DNA from: Acetomicrobium hydrogeniformans ATCC BAA-1850 | GTDB lineage: Bacteria > Synergistota > Synergistia > Synergistales > Acetomicrobiaceae | Direction: 5' to 3' | NCBI RefSeq assembly: GCF_000160455.2 | Contig: NZ_ACJX03000001.1 | Coordinates: forward strand, 557,501-621,500 | DNA: 64,000 nucleotides | Shown: in pieces, positions 8,080-61,818 of the stretch | Layout: each line of letters opens with the position of its first letter | How positions within the stretch are numbered: the first letter of the stretch is position 1 | Translations under genes and position numbers: made by a program | Notes under the pieces: model-generated | Told to the model about the DNA's origin: nothing | Database searches by the model: none | The model's input: only the letters and a program-made list of their open reading frames with translations

Positions 8080-8126
8080 CTATTATTTCTCCCTGCCTAA
8101 GGTTCTTAATATTTTAATATTACTAT

Positions 8127-8160
8127 AAAAATAAGGCGGTATTAATACCGCCTTATTTTT
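8127..8160 (-). terminator. Intrinsic terminator after the mop gene (palindromic, works both ways)
   Basis: A perfect 34-base palindrome with 17-base arms (8127-8143 and 8144-8160) has a GC-rich core (AAGGCGGTATT) and A/T-rich ends. On the minus strand it ends in a U-rich arm 38 bases after the mop stop. It lies between mop and the acyltransferase gene. Confidence 0.85.
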
Positions 8161-8197
8161 ATATTTGAGATCTCGCGAAACATCAATTGTTTATTTT

Positions 8198-48080: not shown

Positions 48081-48114
48081 ACAAAAGAGGCGGGTTATAA
48101 CCCGCCTCTTTTGT
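48081..48114 (-). terminator. Intrinsic terminator after the NCS2 permease gene
   Basis: Perfect 16-base arms (48081-48096 and 48099-48114) with core GAGGCGGGTT and a two-base centre end in a T-rich arm 7 bases after the permease stop on the minus strand. It is symmetrical and could work both ways. Confidence 0.88.
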
Positions 48115-48120
48115 CATTTA

Positions 48121-49494
48121 TCATATTTTTACGCCTATGCCCCGCTCCTCGTCGGTACCGGGAATCAAGCTATCGCATACGGCTGCACAAATGCCCGCTA
48201 CAGCCATCGGTGTCTTCAATATAGCCCATATTACTTCTCCAAGAACTCCTATGGTCGAAAAAATAGCGTGGTTTTGCTCTATCCATCCAGGAAGTCCAAG
48301 GGCCATTAAGAAGGCAAAACCAACTATTAAAACATTCCTCTGGCTTCCCATATCAGCCCTCATCAAAACCTGGATTCCAAGAGCACCTATTACGCCAAAA
48401 AGCGATATATAAGCTCCACCAATTATCGGACTGGGAATGGTGGCAACAAGAGCACCGAGCTTTCCTATTGTGCTCATCAATATTAATATAACGGCTCCTG
48501 TCCTTACAACCCAGCGAGAGGCAACGCCCGTCAAACCGATTAGTCCGATATTTTCCGTATATGATGTCGTTGCAACACCACCCAGCATTCCCGAAATTGC
48601 ACAGTTTACCCCTTCGGCACCAATACCTCTGCTAATGGTCTCAGAGGATGGATCGTCCAGCCCTGCAGCATAGGAACAGGAGTGATAATCTCCGATTGAC
48701 TCGATCATAACCGCGAAGAAACCGGCCAAAGCTGTACCAAATGTTACAACGCTAAACTTTGGCGCACCCCAGGGCATAATTCCAGTAAACCTAAACCACG
48801 GAGCCTTGATAACTTCAGTGAGATCTATATATGCCGGATGCCCCGCAGCGAATAAACCGGTCACTGACAGGATTAAACAAATAAGATAAGTAATTACTAT
48901 TGAAGTCAACACAGAAAATATATTGAGGTATTGTTTTTTCGTCACGAGGCTGAAAAAAAAGATCAAAAACACAACCAATAACGACACCGGCCAATAGTTG
49001 GCAGCATTGAACTGTACAGCAGTGGGAGCAAGGGAAAAGCCTATAGCCATAATTGTGGGTCCGATAACTACGGGAGTTATAACTTTCCTAATATATCCAA
49101 CTATTTTGCTGTATCCCAAAAAAGACAGGAGCAATCCGCCGCTTATCAGGGCACCGCCAATATATTGCATGATCACGTTAGGCCCCATTGCCTTATAAAT
49201 GCCAATTATAGTCATTATGGGAGGGATAAAGCTAAAACTTGACCCCTGAACGATCGGAAGGCCGGAGCCAAGCTTTGGATGCGTTTGGATCAGCGTAGCT
49301 ATCCCCATGGCCAGATATACGCACGAAATAAAAAATCCTATCTCCGCTCTTGTCATTCCCATCTCAGGACCAAAAATGAGCGGAACGAGCGTAGTGGCTC
49401 CAAAAAGTGTCAAAACATGCTGAGCACCCGCCAGTACCAATATAGCTGGCGGAGGAACATCGTTTATGCCATAAACAACTTTCTTTCTAGCCAT
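48121..49494 (-). CDS. NCS2-family nucleobase (xanthine/uracil) permease
   Basis: 457 residues with about 12-14 hydrophobic helices. The start PPPAILVLAGAQHVLTLFGA and the loop near 100-110, plus FFAVMIESIGDYHSCSYAAG near 255 and GVATTSYTENIGLIGLTGVA near 300, are the family signatures. It imports a nucleobase such as uracil, xanthine or urate with protons or sodium. AGGAGGTAAT precedes the ATG, and an inverted repeat and a possible leader peptide lie just upstream. Its position next to the xanthine-dehydrogenase genes fits substrate import. Confidence 0.92.
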   Translation of the reverse strand: MARKKVVYGINDVPPPAILVLAGAQHVLTLFGATTLVPLIFGPEMGMTRAEIGFFISCVYLAMGIATLIQTHPKLGSGLPIVQGSSFSFIPPIMTIIGIYKAMGPNVIMQYIGGALISGGLLLSFLGYSKIVGYIRKVITPVVIGPTIMAIGFSLAPTAVQFNAANYWPVSLLVVFLIFFFSLVTKKQYLNIFSVLTSIVITYLICLILSVTGLFAAGHPAYIDLTEVIKAPWFRFTGIMPWGAPKFSVVTFGTALAGFFAVMIESIGDYHSCSYAAGLDDPSSETISRGIGAEGVNCAISGMLGGVATTSYTENIGLIGLTGVASRWVVRTGAVILILMSTIGKLGALVATIPSPIIGGAYISLFGVIGALGIQVLMRADMGSQRNVLIVGFAFLMALGLPGWIEQNHAIFSTIGVLGEVIWAILKTPMAVAGICAAVCDSLIPGTDEERGIGVKI

Positions 49495-49507
49495 AAAAAT
49501 TACCTCC

Positions 49508-49533
49508 TTCTAAGTTTTATTTTTAACTTAGAA
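49508..49533 (-). promoter_or_regulatory. Inverted repeat over the ribosome site of the permease gene
   Basis: Nine-base perfect arms (TTCTAAGTT at 49508-49516 and its complement at 49525-49533) surround an 8-base spacer. The left arm touches the AGGAGG site on the minus strand, so pairing could hide it. Just upstream, ATG at 49573-49575 opens a 15-codon frame ending inside this repeat. It may be a translational or attenuation control, or an operator. Confidence 0.4.
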
Positions 49534-49614
49534 AACATTTCGAATTGTACACAATAATTTTAAAAGACGCTGCATTACCCCCTTTTATCTTTTGCTGATT
49601 TTAATTGCTTCTAT

Positions 49615-49651
49615 CCCCCGCAAGGCCGCTTCTGCAGCTGCCCTACGGGGG
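49615..49651 (-). other. Hairpin 3' of the molybdenum-subunit gene
   Basis: A six-base CCCCCG/CGGGGG stem (49615-49620 with 49646-49651) with partial inner pairing AGGC/GCC lies 10 bases past the molybdenum-subunit stop. It has no T-run on the minus strand, so it may stabilise the mRNA 3' end or act as a weak terminator. Confidence 0.4.
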
Positions 49652-49661
49652 TAAATAAAGG

Positions 49662-52082
49662 TTAATCCCAGGATTTAATTGCTTGCTTGTAATCCTGTTC
49701 CCTGGCAAAGGGATATTCCCAAAAATCTACATTGCCTTTTTCATCGAATTGCTTTATTGCCTTGTATACTCTTTCTCTCGTAAAAGGATAGCTGTGTATG
49801 CGGACCTTTAAGGCGTTAAATAAAGCATTTCCAATTGCTGGTGCCGGTGAGATCATGGAGTGCTCCCCAACCCCCCTGTTGCCATAGGGAGATATCTCCT
49901 CAGGGGTCTCTTCCCAGAAATATTGAATTTCATCGGGTATGTCCTTTATTGTAGCTATCTTGTAATCAGTGAACGAAGGAGTGAGCAGTAAGCCTTTATC
50001 GTCGTAATACATTCCTTCCATTATGCCAGCAGATATGCCTTGGACGGTTCCACCTTCTATTTGTCCTCTTACGTTCAATGGCGAAATAGCCTTGCCGAGA
50101 TCATAGCCGCATACAACTTTATTGACAACTATTTCTCCGGTATGAGGATCAACTTCAAGGTCAACTCCAACAGCACCTACTGTAAAATGAACAACGCTTT
50201 TGGGAGACTGCCCTGTTTCGATATCAGGATATATTACATCAGGTGGTACAAAATGTCCTCTTCCTATTATGGGTCCACCTTTATATTTACCGTCGGGCAT
50301 CTTGAAGCCGTTTTGAATCTTCGTATCAATCGGCTCAGCCTTGCCAAGCTTTCTGCACTTGACCACTCCGTGTTCAATGGTTATTTCCGACTGGTCACAC
50401 TGCCAATATTCACTATAAAGCTGAATCAATTGATTCCTTGCATCCTCGCACGCAAGTTTCAGAGCCATACCCATGGACCAACAAGAACGGCTTGCCACAG
50501 TCTGCCAATCGTAAGGATGGCTTTGCGTGTCTGGATAATAACATTTTATCTTTTCAATAGGAATGCCCAATTCCTCTGAGGCGATTTGGGCAAATGATGT
50601 GTAAACTCCTTGCCCCATATCCATCGAGGCAGCCAAGACCTTAACGCTCCCATCCCCCAAAATTTCTACTGTAGCTGAAGACGCAGCATCGGCTGGCATG
50701 GCAGGTGCTTTTATGGCAAGGGCAATGCCCTTCCCTCTTTTCCAACCATTACGCTTGGCCGGTTCCTCTTTATTAATGCTTATACCTTCGGCCACCTTTT
50801 TGACTATAGTTTCCAAGGCATGGTTATGCATAGGCATTCCGGTACAGGTCGGCAAACCAGGCTTTAGCAAGTTTTTGAGCCTAAATTCCACGGGATCCAT
50901 ACCCATTTTATGCGCCACTATATCCATGGCCATCTCAAGAGCGCTCATGAACTCTGGCATCCCAAAACCCCTATAAGCTCCACCAAAGGGTTTATTGGTA
51001 TAAACTGCATAGCTATCAGTCCAAACATTAGGTATGTAGTAGCACCCCGTCGATGTATATCCAGCACTTCTTACCGGGTTTGCACCATATTCAGCCGAAA
51101 TCCCTGTATCGAAGTAAAAGGTATTTTTAATTCCCAGTATTTTCCCTTCTTTGTTGACTGCCATCCTTATCCGGGCCACATAACCTTGTCTAACCCACGA
51201 AGAAAGCATTACCTCTTCCCTAGATATAAATAACTTGATGGGCCGCCCCTTTAAGTTTGGGTGCGTCGCCGCAGCAAGACACAAGGCCTCTATGGTCATC
51301 CCTGCCTTACCGCCGAAACCCCCTCCAATGGGCGGGGCTATTACCCTTATCTTGCTTAGCGGCAATCCCAATGCATCAGCTATGATATCTCTGGTTGTGA
51401 AGACGGACTGTCCTGCCGTCCATATAGTTATTTCCTGAGATACAGGATCTTGAACGCACACGCAACAATGAGGCTCGAGAAAGCCGTGCGCTATCTGCGG
51501 ATACGTTACTGCTTCCTCGAAAATGTAATCTGCCTCCTTGAAGGCCTTATCGATATCGCCTCGTCTAACTCTAAACCAGTTAGCTATATTAGTACCTGGT
51601 TGAGGAGTAATGAAATCTACGTGCTCGTAACTTCCCAATTCAGGATGCACCAGCACCGAGTTATCGGTGGCAGCTTTGACTGGATCAAAGACAGCCTCTA
51701 GCTCCTTATACTTAACAGACACCTTGAGAGCCCCTTCTTCAGCAGCTTCCTCGCTTTCTGCAACGACCAACGCCACTGGCTCACCGATATATCTGACCTT
51801 TTTTATGGCCATTGGGCTTCTATCCTTCAGATAGAGGCCGAACCTATATGGGAAGTCCTCGCCAACGATGACCTCTTTAACTCCGGACACCTTCAAGGCC
51901 TCAGCTTTATCGATGGAAATAATTTCACCATGAGGAACAGCGGAACGCACAGCCTTTGCATAGAGCAGAGAAGGCCCAAACTCAAGGTCATCCACAAATT
52001 TCAAGGTGCCAGCAGCTTTTTCGGCGTCGTACATTCTCGTTACCCATTTACCTACGCCACTATTAGTCACAGTCTGCTTCAT
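49662..52082 (-). CDS. Xanthine-dehydrogenase-family molybdenum-binding subunit
   Basis: 806 residues, the length of CoxL/XdhA-type subunits. It hydroxylates an N-heterocycle at the molybdenum site. Visible are the first-domain start YDAEKAAGTLKFVDDLEFG, cofactor loop PPIGGGFGGKAGMTIEA near 265, PFGGAYRGFGMPEFM near 365, MGQGVYTSFAQIASEELGIP near 515, QIEGGTVQGISAGIMEG near 690 and the catalytic-Glu motif RGVGEHSMISPAPAIGN near 740. No Sec codon is seen. AGGAGGAG precedes the ATG. It closes the operon with the 2Fe-2S and FAD subunits. Whether xanthine, uracil or another base is the substrate cannot be read from sequence. Confidence 0.92.
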   Translation of the reverse strand: MKQTVTNSGVGKWVTRMYDAEKAAGTLKFVDDLEFGPSLLYAKAVRSAVPHGEIISIDKAEALKVSGVKEVIVGEDFPYRFGLYLKDRSPMAIKKVRYIGEPVALVVAESEEAAEEGALKVSVKYKELEAVFDPVKAATDNSVLVHPELGSYEHVDFITPQPGTNIANWFRVRRGDIDKAFKEADYIFEEAVTYPQIAHGFLEPHCCVCVQDPVSQEITIWTAGQSVFTTRDIIADALGLPLSKIRVIAPPIGGGFGGKAGMTIEALCLAAATHPNLKGRPIKLFISREEVMLSSWVRQGYVARIRMAVNKEGKILGIKNTFYFDTGISAEYGANPVRSAGYTSTGCYYIPNVWTDSYAVYTNKPFGGAYRGFGMPEFMSALEMAMDIVAHKMGMDPVEFRLKNLLKPGLPTCTGMPMHNHALETIVKKVAEGISINKEEPAKRNGWKRGKGIALAIKAPAMPADAASSATVEILGDGSVKVLAASMDMGQGVYTSFAQIASEELGIPIEKIKCYYPDTQSHPYDWQTVASRSCWSMGMALKLACEDARNQLIQLYSEYWQCDQSEITIEHGVVKCRKLGKAEPIDTKIQNGFKMPDGKYKGGPIIGRGHFVPPDVIYPDIETGQSPKSVVHFTVGAVGVDLEVDPHTGEIVVNKVVCGYDLGKAISPLNVRGQIEGGTVQGISAGIMEGMYYDDKGLLLTPSFTDYKIATIKDIPDEIQYFWEETPEEISPYGNRGVGEHSMISPAPAIGNALFNALKVRIHSYPFTRERVYKAIKQFDEKGNVDFWEYPFAREQDYKQAIKSWD

Positions 52083-52097
52083 ATGTACTCCTCCTCA

Positions 52098-52571
52098 CTA
52101 TTCCCTCATCATGGCTGCTGCCTTTTTAACAGCCCTGATGATAGAAACATAGCCAGTGCACCGACATAAGTTACCGCTTAAGGCTTCCTTAATGTCTTCA
52201 TCCGAAGGGTCTGGATTTTCATTTAAAAGGGCATAAACGCTCATGATCATGCCTGGAGTACAAAAACCACATTGGATGGCCCCTTCCTCAATAAAAGCCT
52301 TTTGTATCGGATGCAGCTCCCCATTGGGGCCTACTAATCCTTCGGAGGTAATAACCGATTTACCCTCTACTTCCGGCAATAACATCATACACGACTTCAT
52401 GGGAACGCCGTCGACTAAAACAGTACACGTGCCACACTCGCCTTCTTCGCAGCCTCTTTTGACGCTTGTTACGCCATGAGCTCTTAAAGCCCTAAGAAGC
52501 GTGGTCCTAGGCTCGCCAACGTATGTGGTTGCTCTTCCGTTTAATATGAAGTTTACCTTTATCTCGCTCAT
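52098..52571 (-). CDS. Molybdenum-hydroxylase 2Fe-2S subunit (CoxS-like)
   Basis: 157 residues. The plant-type cluster motif is C-x4-C-x2-C (GCEEGECGTC near residue 40), and the second 2Fe-2S domain has CGFCTPGMIMSVYALL and CRCTGYVSII near 100-140, the typical pattern. It carries electrons from molybdenum to FAD. The ATG overlaps the stop of the FAD-subunit gene (ATGA, with GGGAGG before it) and the molybdenum-subunit gene follows after 15 bases. Confidence 0.95.
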   Translation of the reverse strand: MSEIKVNFILNGRATTYVGEPRTTLLRALRAHGVTSVKRGCEEGECGTCTVLVDGVPMKSCMMLLPEVEGKSVITSEGLVGPNGELHPIQKAFIEEGAIQCGFCTPGMIMSVYALLNENPDPSDEDIKEALSGNLCRCTGYVSIIRAVKKAAAMMRE

Positions 52572-53449
52572 GACATCCTACCTCCCCGAAGCCCTTCGAT
52601 GCACGTCGCTAAGGCCTTGATGGTCAACTCTCTGATCATATCGAGCCTGTATTCCCTAGTGGCACGAACATCGGTGATGGGGTTTACGCTCTCTGCTACC
52701 TTGTCAGCTGCATTACGTATAGCTGTTTCATCTAAAGTCTTTGTTCCTTTCAAGTACTTCTCTGCCTCTAAAGCACGTATAGGTTTGGGTGCAACGGCCC
52801 CGCAAGAGATTCTGAAATCCTTGCCATTTTGTTTATCGACTACAACACAGGCAACGCTAGCTTGTGCCAGGTCCAACGCATTGCGCCTAGCAAGTTTCAC
52901 ATAACAGCCAGCGGCTTGTGCCTCGATGTGAGGAACGTAAATATGGGTAACTAGCTCTTCCTTTGATAGTACAGTACGCCTAGGACCAGTTATAAATTCT
53001 AAAATTGGAACATCTCTTTCTCCATCGGGACCAGCAATATGCACCACCGCATCGTAACAACATAGCGATGGCACTAAATCGGCTGACGGAACTCCACCGG
53101 TGACGTTGCCTACAAAAGTAGCTTTATTCCTTATTAATCGATCCGAATGGGAAAGGCAAGCCTCGTAGATAGCAGGAAAAGATCTTTTTACCTCGCGATT
53201 TGCCAATACCTGATTGATAGTTGCATTGGCACCTATTCGAAGGCCCTTATGCGGGTAAAAGGAAACGCCGCTCAACTCAGCAATTCCCGTGATATCGATC
53301 ACTATTTCAGGTTTTATCAAATGCTTTTTCATCCAAACTATCAAATCTGTGCCCCCAGCTTTAATGACACTACTCGAGCCATATTGAACGAGGAGTCCTA
53401 TTGTCTCTGCTATGCTTTTGGGTTTAACGTAATCAAACTGAAGCAACAT
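52568..53449 (-). CDS. Molybdenum-hydroxylase FAD-binding subunit (CoxM-like)
   Basis: 293 residues. The FAD site is seen in VIKAGGTDLIVWMKKH near residue 32 and AGTNATINQ-like GANATINQVLANREV near 75, with the loop SDRLIRNKATFVGNVTGGVP near 105 and the C-terminal CO_deh_flav_C part from about 180. It completes the three-subunit enzyme. I used the ATG at 53449 because GAGGGGGTG lies just upstream; an upstream frame start lacks one. Confidence 0.93.
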   Translation of the reverse strand: MLLQFDYVKPKSIAETIGLLVQYGSSSVIKAGGTDLIVWMKKHLIKPEIVIDITGIAELSGVSFYPHKGLRIGANATINQVLANREVKRSFPAIYEACLSHSDRLIRNKATFVGNVTGGVPSADLVPSLCCYDAVVHIAGPDGERDVPILEFITGPRRTVLSKEELVTHIYVPHIEAQAAGCYVKLARRNALDLAQASVACVVVDKQNGKDFRISCGAVAPKPIRALEAEKYLKGTKTLDETAIRNAADKVAESVNPITDVRATREYRLDMIRELTIKALATCIEGLRGGRMS

Positions 53450-53471
53450 TACACACCCCCTCACATTTACA

Positions 53472-53504
53472 CTAATAGGGCGCAGATGCTTTGCGCCCTA
53501 TTAG
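53472..53504 (-). terminator. Hairpin between the cyclase gene and the hydroxylase genes
   Basis: Thirteen-base perfect arms (53472-53484 and 53492-53504, core AGGGCGCA) form a strong hairpin 9 bases after the cyclase stop and about 20 bases before the FAD-subunit start. No T-run follows on the minus strand, so it may only reduce read-through or stabilise mRNA. Confidence 0.55.
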
Positions 53505-53513
53505 ATGCAAGAC

Positions 53514-54320
53514 CTATTCTTCGGTAAAGGCTACAATTCGACTGATACAAGACTCTCCGCCCTGAAACTTCCATGGGAAGCAGCCCACAATAACCCTCTT
53601 TCCTAAAAGCTTATCGATATCTCCGCCCAAGCATTCGGCATGAATTATATTATCTGGGAATAAAGCAATGTGCATTATCTGATAGTCCTCGGCAGGAAAC
53701 ATTTCGTCCAGGGTCTTGTTGTATTTCTTTCGCATATACTCGTCAGCTAATTTTGCGTACTGCGGCATCCACTCTCTTATCTTGGTGTTCATTGGATGAT
53801 CAGCGGATCCGCAATCTACACCGATCCATTTGATCTTCTTCTTCTTGCACCACTCAGCAAACTCCTTGGTTGGGCCCGGATGCATGACCATGTAACGCAC
53901 TTCGTCCGCTTCAGGCTGATCGAAGCCATAGCGATGATATCCTGTATTGATTATCAATATGTCGCCTTCATGGACATCCGCTCTTTCCTCTATATCCTTA
54001 GATGTATAGACGCCAAAGTCCTCAGCAATATCGGAAAGATCTACCACTACGCCGGGCCCCACCAAGAACCCCTGCAGGGGAAGGCTGGCTATATCGTCAC
54101 CATGGGTGCAAAAATGAAGTGGTCCATCCAAGTGGGTACCGACATGATTTGAATGGGTAAGCAGCTGCCCGTTGGCACCATTAGGAGCGAGGCGCTTGAA
54201 GAACTTTACCTGAAGCGGTTCATAGGTCGGCCATGGTGGAGTGAGCTGACTGATGGGTATTGAAAGATCATAAATTTTAACCCTATCCCAATTCTTGGGT
54301 ATTAAGTTTTGAGACAACAT
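53514..54320 (-). CDS. Cyclase-family metal-dependent hydrolase (kynurenine formamidase/isatin hydrolase-like)
   Basis: 268 residues. The metal site H-x-G-T-H-x-D is seen in NHVGTHLDGPLHF near residue 60, with DLSIPISQLTPPWPTYEP near 20 and the internal-strand motif ILIINTGYHRYG near 142. Members open amide rings or formamides (formamidase, isatin hydrolase) and bind Mn or Zn. The ATG follows GGAGGGATT. It lies between DUF1116 and the hydroxylase genes, so it may open the ring made by the hydroxylase. The substrate is inferred, not shown. Confidence 0.87.
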   Translation of the reverse strand: MLSQNLIPKNWDRVKIYDLSIPISQLTPPWPTYEPLQVKFFKRLAPNGANGQLLTHSNHVGTHLDGPLHFCTHGDDIASLPLQGFLVGPGVVVDLSDIAEDFGVYTSKDIEERADVHEGDILIINTGYHRYGFDQPEADEVRYMVMHPGPTKEFAEWCKKKKIKWIGVDCGSADHPMNTKIREWMPQYAKLADEYMRKKYNKTLDEMFPAEDYQIMHIALFPDNIIHAECLGGDIDKLLGKRVIVGCFPWKFQGGESCISRIVAFTEE

Positions 54321-54342
54321 CTAAATCCCTCCTTCTTGTATT

Positions 54343-55602
54343 TTACTCTGCTAAATATTTTTCAACATAATTTTCCGCTGCTTTAACGAAAGCTTCAATG
54401 GGAGTCCTAACTATACCAGCCCCAACCTGGCCCACACCAGGTTGCTTGTGAGCAACGCCAGTGTCCAAGACAGGGGATATACCAGTTTCCGCAACCTTCA
54501 AAACATCGATTCCCGTGGGTGTGCCGCGAAAGTTGAGATAGGGGATATTAAACATGTTATTTTCGCTTACAGTGATCTCGTACATCTCCAGCGTGTAGTT
54601 AACGGCATCCTGCGGGGTACCTCCTATAAACTGTACTATTGCAGGCGCCGCCGCTAAGGCAAAGGCTCCAACCCCCAGGGTCTCCATTATTGCGCTATCC
54701 CCTATATCAGGGTTCACGTCCTCCGGCTTGAAGCCCGGAAATAGCAACACCTTAGGCACCGCTGCAGGGGCAGTAAACCATTTATCCCCCAGGCCTGATA
54801 CCTTTATCCCGAAGTCAGTTCCGTTTCGTGCCATAATCGTTACGTAGCTTGATCCTTCTATCCCATGAGCCGGTTCAACTGAGGCCTTAGCTGCTGCCAT
54901 CCCTAGGTTAAGGAAGAAATGATCGTTGCTATCCAAGAATCTGACAACTTCGGCTAGAGCCTTGTTGTCGATGCTGCTCTCAACCAAGTATGGAAAAAGG
55001 GTGCGCAAAAACAGCGATGTGGCTGCCTTGTTACGATTGTGCAGCTCATCCCCCATGTGCAGTGCTTGAGCTATCAAATTTTTCAGGTCTATGGTATTGT
55101 CAGAATCGTACGCCCTCTTGATACCTGCATTTAGGATAGGATACAATACCTTTTCCATCCAGCGTAGGCGATCTATTACCTCCTGAGAATAAGCTCCATA
55201 CCTAAGCACTTTTCCTAGGCCTTCGTTTTGCGTGACGTAAGCCTCATTATTGAATGTCTTATTCTCCACAATAAATACAGGCATGCTTGGGGAAATGACT
55301 CCAGCCATCGGGCCTACAGCGTGATGGTGATGGCACGGATCAAATTCTACCTCTCCCTTAGAAGCTATTTTTTCTGCCTCTTCCGGGGTGCTTGCCCATC
55401 CTTCATACAACATGGCACCGATAATTGCGCCCTTTAACGGGCCTGACATGCGCTCCCATTCTATGGGAGGTCCAGCATGCAACAGCATTCTTTCACCCAT
55501 TTCGGGAATAACCTCTCCTGCCAGGCCCATACCCACAAGCATGGGCCTGGCTGATAGCACACGTTCCAGCGCTTCTTTATTAGCTTTATTAACATCGACC
55601 AT
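54343..55602 (-). CDS. DUF1116 protein (YlbE/AllG-like, oxamate carbamoyltransferase subunit type)
   Basis: 419 residues, full-length DUF1116. Recognisable parts are HAGPPIEWERMSGPLKGAII near 40, DPCHHHHAVGPMAGVIS near 90 (a His cluster), HGIEGSSYVTIMARNGTDFG near 255 and LNFRGTPTGIDVLKV near 355. In E. coli the corresponding YlbE with FdrA and YlbF forms the oxamate carbamoyltransferase of anaerobic allantoin use. AAGGAGGTG precedes the ATG. It follows a small protein by 2 bases and keeps the order seen with FdrA. Confidence 0.88.
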   Translation of the reverse strand: MVDVNKANKEALERVLSARPMLVGMGLAGEVIPEMGERMLLHAGPPIEWERMSGPLKGAIIGAMLYEGWASTPEEAEKIASKGEVEFDPCHHHHAVGPMAGVISPSMPVFIVENKTFNNEAYVTQNEGLGKVLRYGAYSQEVIDRLRWMEKVLYPILNAGIKRAYDSDNTIDLKNLIAQALHMGDELHNRNKAATSLFLRTLFPYLVESSIDNKALAEVVRFLDSNDHFFLNLGMAAAKASVEPAHGIEGSSYVTIMARNGTDFGIKVSGLGDKWFTAPAAVPKVLLFPGFKPEDVNPDIGDSAIMETLGVGAFALAAAPAIVQFIGGTPQDAVNYTLEMYEITVSENNMFNIPYLNFRGTPTGIDVLKVAETGISPVLDTGVAHKQPGVGQVGAGIVRTPIEAFVKAAENYVEKYLAE

Positions 55603-55604
55603 AA

Positions 55605-55790
55605 CTAATTTGCACCTCCTTCACGCAATTTTCTGAGCTTCGACAAAAGATCTGATTTCAAAGCCGATGGCCGCCAATCCACGTGAACGACCTTCGCATC
55701 CTGCTTTTTCAAGTCGTGATAAAATTGCTCAATTCCTATGTTAACAACTATAGGCCCATTTGCTAGCAAATCCTTCATTGCCAATCCCAT
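55605..55790 (-). CDS. Small protein between fdrA and DUF1116 gene, possible detached FdrA C-terminal domain
   Basis: About 61 residues. The sequence GPIVVNIGIEQFYHDLKKQD followed by VVHVDWRPSA is a compact alpha-beta unit of the kind found at the C-terminus of longer FdrA proteins or at the start of some DUF1116 proteins. The fdrA stop lies 8 bases before it and AAAGGAG precedes two ATG codons (55793 and 55790) with a TTG soon after, so the exact start is unsure. FdrA here (508 residues) plus this piece is near the length of single-chain FdrA (about 555). I take it as a split domain, but it is not proven. Confidence 0.75.
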   Translation of the reverse strand: MGLAMKDLLANGPIVVNIGIEQFYHDLKKQDAKVVHVDWRPSALKSDLLSKLRKLREGGAN

Positions 55791-55798
55791 CATCTCCT

Positions 55799-57325
55799 TT
55801 ACTGCAATAGCATACAAGCAAGGCGCGCAGCTTGAGCGTTGCTGTCGGCTAGGACGACTCCTACGTCTTCTAATATCTTTCTTTGACTTGAAGCGATTTG
55901 CGGATCAGCTTCCACTCCGCAGACATACCCGACAAAAATAACTCTATCGCCAACTTCCCTTTTCACTTGCGATATAGCAGAGGCCAGTTGCTCAGCTGGA
56001 CTTTCATGACATCCATAGCCAAGCACACAATCAAACAAGATAACACCAACCTCATTTTCTTTCGCCTCTTCAATCATCCTCTTAGCCCTAAAACTACTGT
56101 CCATCATCGGATGAAGGCGTCCTTGAGTAAATTCATCTTCGCCGTAATCAACCATGCAGTTGCCGATGCTTTTCAGGCTATCTGGCAACTTGTATCGTTC
56201 GTCCAGAGGGGCGTTGCTATATATGGGACCTAACAACTTACTTGCGACCAGCTGAGCCTCATAGCATAAAGTCCCTCCAGAGTACAGGCCACGCAAATAC
56301 CCTTTTCTTTTGCCAAAATGCGATGCCAATTCTTTCAAATGTTCATACTTCAGATTTAAATCCTTCCTTGCAAGATCAGGATCTGTGCCATTGACTACGG
56401 CAGCAGTCACAGCAGCGGTCTCTTCAAGTTCCTTGCAGAAATATATAGGAGGACGGTCACCTTCTAGTTCTCCTCCAATATAACCCAAAACGGCAGGCTT
56501 ATTTCCTGAAGCTAATCGTTGGAATATCTTTTTTTCCACTTCGGCCGCTGGTGGCTTACCAACCATCACTATGACCTTGACATCATCGCTTTCCAAAAGA
56601 GCTTCAATGCCCATAAGCGATGTTATGCCACCTACCGCTTCTTTTACATCTCTTCCGCCAGTTCCGATAGCATGCAACACCCCAATACCGCGATGAGCCA
56701 GCTGAACATGCACCTCCTGCAAACCAGTACCTGCAGCCGCAACCATACCCACAGGCCCAACGGGGCAGGCATTGGCAAAACCCAATCCAATGCCTTTGAT
56801 AACAGCCGTACCACAATCAGGCCCCATGACCAATAAGCCCTTCTCCTTGGCTATATTCTTTAGTTCGATTTCCTTTTCCAACGACACGTTATCAGAATAC
56901 AACATCACGTGCAAACCCTTGTTGAGGCATTCCATTGCTTCATCGCCGGCATACTGACCAGCGATCGATATCAAGGCAAGGTTTGCTTCCGGTAACATCG
57001 AAAGGGCACCGTTTAAGCTCTTTGGGAAATATTGCTGACTTATCTCAGTGGTCTTCCATGGCGGATTGCTCAAATATTCCTTAGCTTTTGCGATAATCTC
57101 ATCGATAATTTCTTCGTTCGCTTTCACAGCAATCACTAAATCTGACGGGCGTAAATCCAGCCCTGATAGGTCAAAACCGGCAGCAGACATTATTTTTATA
57201 TTAGCCTCTGTGGCCATGTTCAGAGTAGCATCAATAACGCCATCGATCTTCGTCAATTCCTGAGCCACGCGCATTAAACTGACGCTATCATAATATACAC
57301 CGCGCACTACTTCCACCCGTTGCAT
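55799..57325 (-). CDS. fdrA: FdrA-type carbamoyltransferase/acyl-CoA-synthetase-like protein
   Basis: 508 residues. It has a succinyl-CoA-synthetase-alpha-like CoA-binding core (MGPDCGTAVIKGIGLGFANA near 170, VAAAGTGLQEVHVQLAHRG near 195, IGTGGRDVKEAVGG near 220) and a C-terminal ligase-like part with FDCVLGYGCHESPAEQLASA near 430. In E. coli FdrA (AllF) works with YlbE and YlbF to move a carbamoyl group to or from oxamate. AGGAGG precedes the ATG. It lies between the DUF2877 gene and the small protein gene, in the usual order. The acceptor in this organism is unknown. Confidence 0.93.
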   Translation of the reverse strand: MQRVEVVRGVYYDSVSLMRVAQELTKIDGVIDATLNMATEANIKIMSAAGFDLSGLDLRPSDLVIAVKANEEIIDEIIAKAKEYLSNPPWKTTEISQQYFPKSLNGALSMLPEANLALISIAGQYAGDEAMECLNKGLHVMLYSDNVSLEKEIELKNIAKEKGLLVMGPDCGTAVIKGIGLGFANACPVGPVGMVAAAGTGLQEVHVQLAHRGIGVLHAIGTGGRDVKEAVGGITSLMGIEALLESDDVKVIVMVGKPPAAEVEKKIFQRLASGNKPAVLGYIGGELEGDRPPIYFCKELEETAAVTAAVVNGTDPDLARKDLNLKYEHLKELASHFGKRKGYLRGLYSGGTLCYEAQLVASKLLGPIYSNAPLDERYKLPDSLKSIGNCMVDYGEDEFTQGRLHPMMDSSFRAKRMIEEAKENEVGVILFDCVLGYGCHESPAEQLASAISQVKREVGDRVIFVGYVCGVEADPQIASSQRKILEDVGVVLADSNAQAARLACMLLQ

Positions 57326-57339
57326 CTATTTTTCGCCTC

Positions 57340-57993
57340 CTAAGAAAAGCTGTTACATATTGAAACAGCATGAAAAAAACCAGATATCCAAGCTCTGCCA
57401 GACGTATGCCCCGTGGACATAAGTTCATTCAAAGCATCCTCTACTTCGCCATCAGCCCCCCTTGACAATGCCTCCAGCAATTTCCTCGACCTATACCAGG
57501 TGAGACCACAGGCCGCATCGTACAACATACAACTTGAAAACCAAGTTGTCCTGCTTTCGAGGTTTCGGAATGATATAACATTCTCAAAATTATGCCCCAT
57601 CCACCTCAATGCTATATGCATTCCTGTCAAAAAATCATCCCCTGCCGGAGTGCTGCCGGGCCCAAGGCCCACTAGGGCATCATAACCATCGTTATCAAGA
57701 GTAAACAACAAAACTTCGAGTTCGTCATCCAACAACATATACCATTCTCTAAACAATGCATCCCATCTCCTGGGTATGCTGCTAGCTTGTGGTATATTGG
57801 GGTCATATATGACTGGCACTTTCAAGTTTTCACTGTCAATTAACAAATTATCGGCAACGTCATCAAGGGAATCAACTAGCAAACTGCGTGGCCCCATATC
57901 ATTGTAATCCAACACCAAAGAAAATCGCCAGCCATCTAATATCAGGTTGCATGTCTTTTTGTAACGTTCCTTAAGGTGAAAATCTCCTCGCAA
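57340..57993 (-). CDS. DUF2877 protein (YlbF/AllH-like)
   Basis: 217 residues from the TTG at 57993. The family motif VGLGPGSTPAGDDFLTGMHI near residue 115 is clear. Members are usually about 270-300 residues. The frame stays open upstream, and a CTG at 58021-58023 overlaps the CoA-transferase stop (CTGA) with AAGGAG 4 bases before it, giving 227 residues. That would be a rare but well-placed start. It is the third part of the E. coli-type oxamate carbamoyltransferase set and precedes fdrA by 14 bases. Confidence 0.85.
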   Translation of the reverse strand: MRGDFHLKERYKKTCNLILDGWRFSLVLDYNDMGPRSLLVDSLDDVADNLLIDSENLKVPVIYDPNIPQASSIPRRWDALFREWYMLLDDELEVLLFTLDNDGYDALVGLGPGSTPAGDDFLTGMHIALRWMGHNFENVISFRNLESRTTWFSSCMLYDAACGLTWYRSRKLLEALSRGADGEVEDALNELMSTGHTSGRAWISGFFHAVSICNSFS

Positions 57994-58019
57994 CTCCCAA
58001 TCAGAGCTTTTGCCTAAGA

Positions 58020-59210
58020 TCAGATTACTCCTTCCTCCTCCAATGCATTAACATCATCTGGCGTCATGCCAAGGTACTCTGTCAGCACCTCTTCATTGTG
58101 TTGGCCAAGTACCGGAGCCGGAGACTTAATCTTCCCGGGAGTCATGGAGAGCTTAATGGGGATCCCGGGCAATGTAAAGTTGCCGGCTACGGGATGAACC
58201 ACGTTAACAATCATGTCCCTGGCAAGCACATGGGGATCTTTGACCACATCAGCTATATTGCTTATCTTTCCGGCGGGTATGCCTGCATCGTCAAACTCCT
58301 TCAACCACTTTTCAGTAGGACATTCGATGAATGCTTCTTGAAGCAGAGGCTCGAGATCCGCCCAATTGGCCACCCTGTCGGCATTGGTCTTAAAACGAGC
58401 ATCTTCGTAAAGGTGAGGCCTATTTAAGGCCACGCATAACCTTCTCCAAAGCTCATTGTTTCCACAAGCTATATTGATATGCCCATCCTGCGTCTTAAAC
58501 GTAGCAAAGGGTGCGATGGAAGGGTGCCTATTGCCTATTGGTTCTGGGGTAACGCCTGTGGCCACATATCTTGCTATGGCATTCTCCAATATCGCCACCA
58601 TACAATCTAGCATAGCTACATCTACGTATTGTCCCTTTCCGCTAGATTCTCTGTGATGCAACGCAGCAAGTATGCCTATGGCGGTGAACACCCCAGCAAA
58701 TATATCGGCAATTGAACTTCCAACCTTGGTAGGGGTGTTTTTATCCGGTCCCGTAATGCTCATTATGCCCCCTAATCCTTGGACGATCAGGTCGTAAGCC
58801 GGTTTTTCGCTCAAAGGACCGTACTGTCCGAAACCAGAACATGACGCATATATGATACGCGGATTTCGAGCTGCAAATTCCTCGTAAGAAAGGCCAAGCT
58901 TTTCCATTACACCTGGCTTGAAATTCTCGATCAATATATCTGCTTTTTCCCCCATCCTTAAAGCTATCTCCCTGCCCTTGGGGTTCTTTAGATCCAACGT
59001 CACGCTCTTTTTCCCCCTGTTTATGCTCATGAAGTAGGCACTCTCACCCTTTACGATGGGAGTAAAGGCTCTAGAGTCATCACCTGTTTTGGGTCGCTCT
59101 ATCTTGATAACCTCTGCTCCCAGGTCAGCCAAGATCATGGCGCAGAAGGGGCCAGCCAAGACGCGTGTAAAATCTAAAACTATTACACCTTCCAATGGGC
59201 CTGACAACAT
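58020..59210 (-). CDS. Class III CoA-transferase (CaiB/BaiF family)
   Basis: 396 residues, normal for the family. The start VIVLDFTRVLAGPFCAMILADLG with IERP, the nucleophile Asp in VDVAMLDCMVAIL near 185, GNRHPSIAPFATFKT near 225 and GIPAGKISNIADVV near 320 match formyl-CoA:oxalate-type transferases. It moves CoA between carboxylic acids. GGAGGTG precedes the ATG. It lies 13 bases after the nitrilase-type gene and just before the DUF2877 gene, so it may activate the acid made by the pathway (for example oxamate, oxalate or malonate). This is inference. Confidence 0.88.
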   Translation of the reverse strand: MLSGPLEGVIVLDFTRVLAGPFCAMILADLGAEVIKIERPKTGDDSRAFTPIVKGESAYFMSINRGKKSVTLDLKNPKGREIALRMGEKADILIENFKPGVMEKLGLSYEEFAARNPRIIYASCSGFGQYGPLSEKPAYDLIVQGLGGIMSITGPDKNTPTKVGSSIADIFAGVFTAIGILAALHHRESSGKGQYVDVAMLDCMVAILENAIARYVATGVTPEPIGNRHPSIAPFATFKTQDGHINIACGNNELWRRLCVALNRPHLYEDARFKTNADRVANWADLEPLLQEAFIECPTEKWLKEFDDAGIPAGKISNIADVVKDPHVLARDMIVNVVHPVAGNFTLPGIPIKLSMTPGKIKSPAPVLGQHNEEVLTEYLGMTPDDVNALEEEGVI

Positions 59211-59223
59211 TTACACCTCCTGT

Positions 59224-60114
59224 TTACCTATAGCTGTAAGGAATCCTCTTTGCAGGTTCAAAGGCACATTTGCCCTTTTGCAAAATGCCCTTGTATGCCT
59301 CAAGATTTCTATCTTCGATATGATCAAAATACTGTGGCGAGGAACTGTTGGGCGTTATGGTAGATATGGGGTTCGGATCTAACGTCGCCCATATGAACTC
59401 ATCAGAACACCTGGCCTGGGCAAGTTTCATGCCACTTGGATGGACTATCATAGAGCCCCCAAAATATTGAGCACCGGACGCATCAAAACCTACGCTGTTC
59501 GTGGCAATTACATAAACGTGATTATCGTAGGCTCTCGCCTTGTTCGTCAGCTCCCACTGGTCGAAGGTGCGCAGGAAAGCAGAGGGCCTGCAGATTACTT
59601 CGGCCCCCATTAGAGCAGTAGCTCTAGACAGCTCGGGGAAATCGCCGTCGTAGCATATTATTATCCCAATCTTTCCAAGGGGAGTCTCAACACAACATGG
59701 CTCATTCCCTGGGGTAGTCCAACCGCCCCCTTCCAATCTTTCTGAAGGAAAGGGATGGGTCTTTCTATAAACTCCCATAACACCACCAGGACCTATCAAA
59801 GCTGCACTGTTATATATAACTCCCTCTTTGTCTCCGCGTTCATAAGTAGGGAAAACTATATATGTGCCAAGCTCCTGTGCCCACCTTGTTACCTCATCCG
59901 TAAATTTCCCAGGTATAGCATCTACAACATTCCAAAGGGCTTCAACACCTCCAGCAGGGGAAAAACCCGTGGTAACCGATTCAGGTAATACAATAAGATC
60001 GGCAAGCGAACTCTCATGACACCTATACACCCAATCTTTGGCTATCTTCATGTTCTCTTCTGCATCCATAGGTTTAACAGCAAACTGTACCGAAGCAGCA
60101 ACAAAACGCTTCAT
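59224..60114 (-). CDS. Carbon-nitrogen hydrolase (nitrilase superfamily amidase)
   Basis: 296 residues. The catalytic Glu-Lys-Cys triad is seen in LPESVTTGFSP near residue 45, YRKTHPFPSERL near 120 and IGIIICYDGDFPELSRA near 157. Members hydrolyse amides or ureido groups (N-carbamoyl amino acids, omega-amides). I used the ATG at 60114 since AGGAGAG lies before it. It is the first gene of the long minus operon, 60 bases after a strong promoter. An amidase acting on a ureido or oxamate-type intermediate is the likely role. Confidence 0.87.
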   Translation of the reverse strand: MKRFVAASVQFAVKPMDAEENMKIAKDWVYRCHESSLADLIVLPESVTTGFSPAGGVEALWNVVDAIPGKFTDEVTRWAQELGTYIVFPTYERGDKEGVIYNSAALIGPGGVMGVYRKTHPFPSERLEGGGWTTPGNEPCCVETPLGKIGIIICYDGDFPELSRATALMGAEVICRPSAFLRTFDQWELTNKARAYDNHVYVIATNSVGFDASGAQYFGGSMIVHPSGMKLAQARCSDEFIWATLDPNPISTITPNSSSPQYFDHIEDRNLEAYKGILQKGKCAFEPAKRIPYSYR

Positions 60115-60174
60115 CGCAACTACCTCTCTCCTTGGCATTCCTGATAAATTATGGAAGATTGATTAATATAGTAC

Positions 60175-60222
60175 AATATAATCCTCATTTATGACATGTC
60201 AACTAGTAACATATGTTATAAT
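60175..60222. promoter_or_regulatory. Divergent promoter region with two palindromes between the amidase gene and pucR
   Basis: On the minus strand TTGACA (60202-60197) and TATATT (60180-60175) are 16 bases apart, a strong promoter for the long operon. On the plus strand TATAAT (60217-60222) probably is the -10 box of pucR. A palindrome TGACATGTCA (60192-60201) covers the first -35 box and TAACATATGTTA (60207-60218) covers the pucR -10 box. Both contain ACAT facing ATGT, so they are candidate PucR sites. Confidence 0.6.
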
Positions 60223-60264: not shown

Positions 60265-61818
60265 ATGTTGCAGGTTGCCGATTTACTTAATAAAAATATG
60301 TTTCCGGACTTTAGAGTCGCCGCCGGCAGCAAAGGGTTGATCAGGGAGATCACCTCAGTATCCGTGCTTGATGCCCCAGATGTCGACAGGTGGATGAGAG
60401 GTGGAGAGTTTCTCATTGGCAGCGGCTATATCTTTAAGGACGATCCAACGGAGTTTACGCACTTTTTGGATAGGGTAGCAACAAAGGACATTGCTGCCGT
60501 CGGAATAAAGCTTGACAGGTTTTATCACACCTTGCCATCTGGAATCATCGATCAGGCGAACAGTTTAAATTTACCACTTATAGAAATTCCGATAGACTAT
60601 AGGTGGACTGACATCATCGAAACCGTCACATTATATATTTTAAACGAAAAAAACAAGGACGTCTTGCGTCAAGATATAGAGGTCGCCCAGTCATTACAAA
60701 TGTTAAATAATGAAGAGGACATTAAAAACCTTATAGCACTGATTGCCAAAGACCTGGAGAGGGATATGGTGGTAAAAGCACCGCGTATTCATATCTTCAA
60801 TCACTTTGCAAACAACGACAAAGAGAGCGACAACGGAGCATATTTAAATGTCTTCGATACGCCTTCCTTAGAAGAGAAGCCTCTTCCCAAAAAAGGAATA
60901 ATATTGGCCAATCTTTCGCTTAAAATGCTAGACAAGCCAAGGTGGGTTGCTTGTTACCGTATCGATGGAGAACCAAATGTAGAGGTTGCACTGATTCTAA
61001 AAGACAACGAACACTATCCATCCATCAGGCAAAACAACTCGATGTGGCGTATAGTATCTTTGCTAAGGCTTGCCCAATTGGATGCTGTCCTTACTTTAAA
61101 CCAACATGATATAGAAAAAGAACGCTTCTTAGAAAGTTTATGTTTGGGTTTATATAATGATTTGGATATTATAATGCATAAAGCAAACGAAATGAAACTT
61201 ATATTACCAAGTAAAGCTTTTGTCATGATGGCTACCCCAATAAATGATAAGTCTACTACTAAAGAGCAATGGAAACCTCAAAGTTCCTTGAGTTACAGGT
61301 TGGGAAACATATGGGTAACTATACATTCACACAAAGATAGAACTTTTGACTGGACTACAACAGCAAAGATCAATAACTATTGGATATCTCTAGGACAGAA
61401 TGTTGAATCGTTGTTAAATTTGAACAAATCTTACCTCCAAGCCAAACAAACGTTAAACTGGATCAAAGAGTTTAAATGTGAGCCAGGGGCATACCAACAT
61501 GGAGATTTATCGCTTCATGCATTGCTTGCAAATTTGGACAGCATTCCCGAGGCAAAAGAGCTACATCAAAGATACTGGATGCCTTTGATGGAAGTTAAGG
61601 CACGCTCAAAAAATACCATATCACTGGATATAGTTGCAAAAACGTTGATACAGGTGGATTTTAATGTAAAGGAAATGGCAAAAATATTACATATTCACTA
61701 TAATACTGCTCGTAAATACGTAAAAGAAATAGAACATGTACTAAACATAAAGATGGATAGCAGGGAGCATAAAATCGGACTAGAACTTGCCTATTATATT
61801 GACAGCCATAAGAAATAA
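60265..61818 (+). CDS. pucR: PucR-family transcriptional regulator
   Basis: 517 residues. The N-terminal purine-catabolism regulatory domain (about 1-120) has LIREITSVSVLDAPDVDRWM and GEFLIGSGYIFKDD. The middle is GGDEF-like/PucR linker, and a C-terminal helix-turn-helix (about 450-510) reads VDFNVKEMAKILHIHYNTAR. These proteins control purine and amine use. The ATG follows GGCGGTG. It is divergent from the amidase-to-hydroxylase operon and likely controls it through the palindromes in the shared region. Confidence 0.92.
   Translation: MLQVADLLNKNMFPDFRVAAGSKGLIREITSVSVLDAPDVDRWMRGGEFLIGSGYIFKDDPTEFTHFLDRVATKDIAAVGIKLDRFYHTLPSGIIDQANSLNLPLIEIPIDYRWTDIIETVTLYILNEKNKDVLRQDIEVAQSLQMLNNEEDIKNLIALIAKDLERDMVVKAPRIHIFNHFANNDKESDNGAYLNVFDTPSLEEKPLPKKGIILANLSLKMLDKPRWVACYRIDGEPNVEVALILKDNEHYPSIRQNNSMWRIVSLLRLAQLDAVLTLNQHDIEKERFLESLCLGLYNDLDIIMHKANEMKLILPSKAFVMMATPINDKSTTKEQWKPQSSLSYRLGNIWVTIHSHKDRTFDWTTTAKINNYWISLGQNVESLLNLNKSYLQAKQTLNWIKEFKCEPGAYQHGDLSLHALLANLDSIPEAKELHQRYWMPLMEVKARSKNTISLDIVAKTLIQVDFNVKEMAKILHIHYNTARKYVKEIEHVLNIKMDSREHKIGLELAYYIDSHKK

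Follow-up and report, generated by a model that had tools for sequence, protein, structure and literature searches.

An inverted repeat conserved between pucR and an AllFGH/xanthine-dehydrogenase operon in Synergistota is a predicted PucR operator beside a candidate shared -10 element

The window analyzed here, a 64-kb stretch of DNA that is part of a 2.12-Mb Acetomicrobium genome, carries a gene for a PucR-family regulator and, divergent from it on the minus strand, a long gene cluster that includes AllF, AllG and AllH homologs and subunits of the xanthine-dehydrogenase type (Table 1). The window PucR contains the N-terminal PF07905 domain of its family (107.8 bits, cut-off 33.5) and the C-terminal HTH_30 domain PF13556 (33 bits, cut-off 27). 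Approximately half of PucR family members are said also to have a GGDEF-like middle domain; for this domain there were no matches in the window protein at E≤1e-3, and the relative in genome G172 scored 22.5 bits against a cut-off of 24.5. The genes on the minus strand between 60138 and 48121 are presumably co-transcribed, and the FeS and FAD subunits of xanthine-dehydrogenase type among them were named from blast and tblastn labels together with their sequences. AllFGH was demonstrated to be the oxamic transcarbamylase in E. coli, as reported in PMC11326118. Immediately 3' of the NCS2 permease stop codon is a 34-bp perfect palindrome (48081–48114), a likely operon terminator; another perfect palindrome in the window, of 40 bp, is found at 8124–8163. 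A carbamate kinase (TIGR00746, above cut-off; L182, G000:C1:214583–215512) is encoded ~400 kb away from the AllFGH operon. When we compared the Acetomicrobium genomes, i.e., our own (G000), its close relative Acetomicrobium sp. UBA3949 (Synergistota; G002, L031), G046, G004, G003 and G001, AllG was present in two of the six and PucR (E≤1e-60) in the same two. The pucR/AllG locus looks accessory, as even G046, a 99% complete genome of the same species, has neither AllG (54343–55602 in the window) nor, at E≤1e-60, PucR (60265–61818).

Table 1. Genes, repeats and candidate promoter elements around the pucR intergenic region (window positions)
Feature	Position	Strand	Remarks
Operon remainder: CoA-transferase (class III), AllH, FdrA/AllF, AllG, cyclase, three xanthine-dehydrogenase-type subunits, NCS2 permease	48121–59210	-	
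First operon gene, carbon-nitrogen hydrolase	59224–60138	-	PF00795; alternative start 60114
Candidate shared -10, symmetric heptamer TATAGTA (TATAATA in G002)	60167–60173	.	TANNNTA at fixed operator distance in 14/15 loci
Candidate pucR -10, TATAGT	60167–60172	+	TANNNT at -32; predicted start near 60179
Candidate operon -10, TACTAT	60168–60173	-	TANNNT at +36; predicted start near 60161
Alternative operon promoter, TTGACA-16-TATATT	60175–60202	-	11/12 sigma-70 match; not at conserved distance
Palindrome 1, TGACATGTCA	60192–60201	.	Outer half-site plus left operator half-site; in 2/15 divergent loci
Predicted PucR operator, inverted repeat ATGTCA-ACTAG-TAACAT	60196–60212	.	Centre 60204; consensus in 15/15 divergent loci
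Palindrome 2, TAACATATGTTA	60207–60218	.	Right operator half-site plus outer half-site; in 2/15 divergent loci
Alternative pucR promoter, extended -10 TGTTATAAT	60214–60222	+	Not at conserved distance
pucR, PucR-family regulator, 517 aa	60265–61818	+	PF07905 and PF13556 matches

A search of 185 Synergistota genomes for PucR (E≤1e-60) identified 26 places in 22 genomes, and all 26 were examined. At 15 of these pucR is divergent from an operon (AllFGH, xanthine dehydrogenase and other genes), the fifteenth, in G149, having been established from its second contig, and at 11 it is non-divergent. All 15 divergent regions, which come from families f1, f2, f3 and f5, contain the inverted repeat ATGKCA-N5-TR(A/C)CA, located ~68–98 bp upstream of the pucR start as set by blast. 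When the tested cluster was left out of the matrix, the repeat came top in all 15 intergenic regions and in all 13 fetched loci, and a matrix built without Acetomicrobium placed the repeat at the top of the 64-kb window, with a score of 19.98, the next separate place reaching 13.51. Judged on its score only, the window site is not overwhelming, the best score among 200 shuffled windows being 20.77 and the 95% point 17.35; the weight of the predicted operator comes from its homologous position rather than from its score. An unbiased dyad count recovered the motif dyads in six of nine representatives, compared to a maximum of three to four in 30 shuffled sets. Based on these comparisons, we consider it highly probable that the operator part of our explanation is correct.

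The strict pattern ATGKCANNNNNTRACA matched once in our whole genome and three times in its reversed control, and, as at least 141 of the 185 genomes contain it one or more times, the presence of the pattern alone is not diagnostic; phylum-wide pattern counts are noisy, ATGGCA being frequent at gene starts. Two related patterns were discarded: as a genome-wide motif TRACANNTGTYA was found at six places per strand, the same as in the reversed control, and TGNCANNNNNTRACA was too loose (13 and 7 places in our genome, 2 and 7 in the control). Among the matches listed, ATGTCA-N5-TGACAT with two mismatches occurred 66 times in our genome versus 30 times in the control. Pattern places were considered in nine genomes; away from the pucR and operon neighbourhoods L139, L154 and L159 were scored and the contigs L139 and L154 were read. 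Because L139 (17.6) falls within a coding frame, it is clear that the matrix also gives false places. On several contigs of G077 ATGKCANNNNNTRACA is present 12 and 16 times with none in the control, many of the copies being near ATGTCACGCAGTGACA; these are probably an unrelated repeated element.

The original prediction had described this region as containing twin palindromes, one covering the -35 box of the operon and the other the -10 box of pucR, both with ACAT facing ATGT, in an arrangement suited to a regulator of both directions. Both TGACATGTCA and TAACATATGTTA are indeed present where they were placed and both are perfect, and neither has a second exact copy in the 64-kb window. As palindromes they are hardly more than chance would give: perfect palindromes in the window number 89 at 10 bp or longer and 25 at 12 bp or longer, with four pairs having centres no more than 20 bp apart. 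We think it very unlikely that the two are separate operators, or that their outer halves provide extra affinity half-sites in this lineage. Such a reading is favored by their exactness and by both being kept in G002, as well as by the fact that GabR, a PucR-type regulator of Corynebacterium glutamicum, is described as binding best with two neighboring sites (PMC7652997); however, when the 150-bp intergenic DNA was shuffled by dinucleotides, 102 of 2000 sequences had two or more palindromes of at least 10 bp, the half-site spacing is unequal between the two palindromes, and both are found only in G000 and G002, being missing from the other 13 of the 15 divergent loci. The intergenic regions of G000 and G002 differ at 6 of 150 positions, too few for G002 to be informative on palindrome conservation. 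As a lack of conservation was what the original prediction had itself named as refuting it, the twin-palindrome idea fails in these 13 loci, and, together with the shuffle frequency, this led us to reject twin palindromic operators as a conserved unit. Nor was an exact copy found before the NCS2 permease gene, where one had been suggested; the best operator score there (49480–49680) was 1.33, as against the top score at the true site. What does go beyond chance is the conserved 17-letter inverted repeat, to which each palindrome contributes its inner half; both palindromes are mostly by-products of it.

We sought to relate the site to the operon and to PucR. AllG was identified (E≤1e-120) in 18 of the 185 genomes, of which 17 have PucR, and the site lies upstream of the operon in 16 of the 18, among which are a few draft genomes with AllG on a different contig from the operon start; in G182 the contig begins inside the cluster. 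The remaining genome, G043, has an AllFG-type operon and is without PucR at E≤1e-60, and no site was found in the 13 kb around this operon (best 11.7). In G172 pucR is non-divergent and the operon is in two pieces, and the site is found upstream of both (19.8 and 19.4); the 400 bp upstream of this pucR are without it. The operator and its flanks look duplicated before the two pieces (L163 1030–1046 and L071 9862–9878), with similarity that extends past the site, and this duplication offers a natural test of whether the site travels with the operon promoter. In G022 and G013, where pucR is also non-divergent and AllG was not found at E≤1e-120, the best place in the locus (15.6 and 14.7, respectively) precedes a gene for a transporter (SCFA_trans in G022, its G013 counterpart being 94% identical), followed by a CN-hydrolase gene, beside pucR, which suggests another set of targets bearing the same kind of site. 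The PucR relatives of these two genomes (L035 5409 and L036 14086) are encoded beside the short-chain fatty acid transporter, the CN-hydrolase and a CoA-transferase. For 8 of the 11 non-divergent PucR loci there was no convincing site, the best scoring 12.9 or less with a matrix that gives only 11.5 to the accepted operator of G047. The divergent PucRs could not be supported as a single clade, as the label requires three changes in the tree, which carries long-branch warnings.

These associations bear on whether a regulator other than PucR, encoded elsewhere, might read the repeat. The site belongs to a general type of inverted repeat and PucR is its predicted binder, which would leave room for such a protein; however, the single strict-pattern match in our genome suggests a local regulator, the near-complete co-occurrence of AllG with PucR and the site-free operon of the PucR-less G043 point to PucR, and G022 and G013 have sites beside pucR with different targets. 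We therefore regard a non-PucR reader as quite improbable. Of the two-way control by PucR originally proposed, what stands is a site between the two directions that is most likely read by PucR and in which the ACAT/ATGT half-sites appear to matter; the site would be one inverted repeat and not two palindromic operators.

We then took TANNNT as a minimal -10 element and counted it in nine clusters at all distances from the centre of the operator. In the operon direction there was a peak at +36 (8/9 clusters, next best offset four), and all four sites outside the offset count also have TANNNT there, while in the pucR direction the peak was at -32 (9/9 clusters, next best four). In 14 of 15 sequences (8/9 clusters, with 2.5 clusters or fewer in 500 shuffles) the two hexamers merge into TANNNTA at one and the same distance from the operator, so that in sequence these loci have the reciprocal -7T and -11A of a shared -10 element. 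The conserved -10 candidates of both directions are thus at 60167–60173 and not at 60175–60180 or 60217–60222. In G022 and G013, with their non-divergent pucR, the operon-side -10 (TAGAAT) is kept and the seventh base is G. All 6/6 f3 loci have a TTTACA spaced 17 bp upstream of the pucR -10, and 2/2 f2 loci have one with the same spacing upstream of the operon -10; in the window the candidate -35 of the operon is a 4/6 match (ATGTCA, at 18 bp) and the best for pucR matches at only 2/6. The divergent starts of bidirectional promoters are 7–25 bp apart, commonly 18, and the starts that we predict for the window operon and pucR would be 18 bp apart. With respect to the preference for A at +1 and T at -18, the bases at the inferred starts differ between lineages with no consistent pattern. 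As a second -10 requires just one further base once the first is given, the bidirectional claim is weaker than that for the operator, and for the window we rate a shared -10 as an even chance.

An alternative is that PucR has the same operator but that in Acetomicrobium the operon uses TTGACA-16-TATATT and pucR its extended -10, so that PucR would overlap both promoters and repress them until released by an effector, with no shared -10 in use. This is suggested by the 11/12 sigma-70 match of TTGACA-16-TATATT, the strongest in the window, by the extended -10 TGTTATAAT on the pucR side, and by the weak -35s of the conserved -10s in Acetomicrobium. However, neither of these -10s is at the distance kept in other lineages, and TTGACA belongs to an operator half-site, TTGACA or TTGCCA occupying this position in 10 of the 15 divergent loci. 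Furthermore, PucR-type regulators to date are described as activators, and that of Bacillus subtilis as both activator and repressor (PMC7652997), so we consider such dual repression unlikely, if still the leading competitor of the shared -10 for the promoters of this lineage. The TTGACA (60202–60197, minus strand) originally assigned as the operon -35 does share 5 of its 6 bases with palindrome 1, yet it is the operator half-site, although it could still act as a -35 in the Acetomicrobium lineage. Palindrome 2 was inexactly said to cover the pucR -10 box; as the TATAAT in question is at 60217–60222, the palindrome meets only its first two bases.

Comparison between genomes gives a predicted operator that is conserved, is associated with the operon and PucR, and has a fixed spacing to the -10 candidates; from this we infer PucR as the binder, the direction of regulation and the promoters used in our own lineage. 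We propose that PucR binds the 17-bp inverted repeat as a symmetric oligomer, and that the symmetric -10 heptamer to the left of the operator could be used by RNA polymerase either way, with starts ~18 bp apart. The operator centre would be at ~-43 for the operon, abutting its -35 region, which is an activator position, and effector-bound PucR would here activate an otherwise weak promoter, the effector probably being a purine, allantoin or oxalurate-type metabolite. For pucR the operator would be at ~+25 and would hinder transcription; as the two -10 elements overlap, a polymerase recruited in the operon direction would in addition keep others from engaging in the pucR direction. We take the GabR layout (PMC7652997) and the activation from a CRP site at -40.5 (PMC12825309) as reported precedents that support this mechanism; however, as gabR mRNA is reported to rise 4-fold on GABA in C. 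glutamicum (PMC7652997), simple autorepression of pucR may not hold. Taken as a whole, the statement that one PucR operator and a shared -10 serve to activate the operon and restrain pucR seems to us evenly balanced. We are more tentative, and slightly on the side of doubt, about its broadest form, in which this would be a natural regulator-controlled bidirectional promoter found across four Synergistota families, the PucR operator setting the direction of the polymerase and pucR being switched off by polymerase exclusion and not by a roadblock alone.

Among the matches listed, the open-access literature contained nothing on this operator, nor on control by PucR in Synergistota. The component parts are of known kinds, and what is new is their conserved combination. 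It provides a precise, testable candidate operator for the PucR-type regulators of Synergistota, ties this regulator to operons encoding AllFGH and xanthine dehydrogenase, and may represent a case, conserved in evolution, of a bidirectional promoter under the control of an activator; according to a 2026 abstract (PMC12825309), nothing was known of how promoters of this class are controlled.

The E. coli allFGHK operon, as presented in PMC11326118, likewise keeps the AllF, AllG and AllH homologs together; it retains allK, whereas we saw no carbamate kinase in the operon here. Unlike in E. coli, the homologs here are accompanied by a CN-hydrolase, a CoA-transferase, xanthine dehydrogenase and PucR. 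The name PucR does not appear in the available text of that paper. Within the PucR family, the B. subtilis members PucR, PutR and AdeR can also be compared: PMC7652997 cites a 17-bp inverted repeat as the binding site of PutR and a PucR box that is non-palindromic, in contrast to the window site, while PutR and AdeR are described as controlling proline and alanine use. The B. subtilis PucR is described as activating when its site is upstream of the -35 and as repressing when the site is downstream of the -35 or over it (PMC10242094, citing Beier 2002). GabR, the activator of gabTDP in C. glutamicum, is likewise divergent from its operon and has its inverted-repeat site just upstream of the operon -35 and downstream of the regulator -10 (PMC7652997), and in all 15 divergent PucR places we found the regulator divergent with an inverted repeat between. 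According to the same source the GABA operon controlled by GabR has two 21-bp repeats; the loci studied here have one conserved 17-bp repeat, extra half-sites being lineage-specific, and a purine/oxamate-type operon, as well as the candidate shared -10, which the available text of PMC7652997 does not describe for GabR. In symmetric -10 elements, the -7T of one direction is reported to pair with the -11A of the other, which places the two starts 18 bp from each other, and activating one direction can silence the other (PMC10268837, PMC12825309), as when a CRP site at -40.5 in a semi-synthetic bidirectional promoter activated one direction and silenced the other (PMC12825309). Compared to that semi-synthetic case, the Synergistota loci would be natural, with a PucR-type operator whose position is fixed across four families and with starts that are predicted from sequence.
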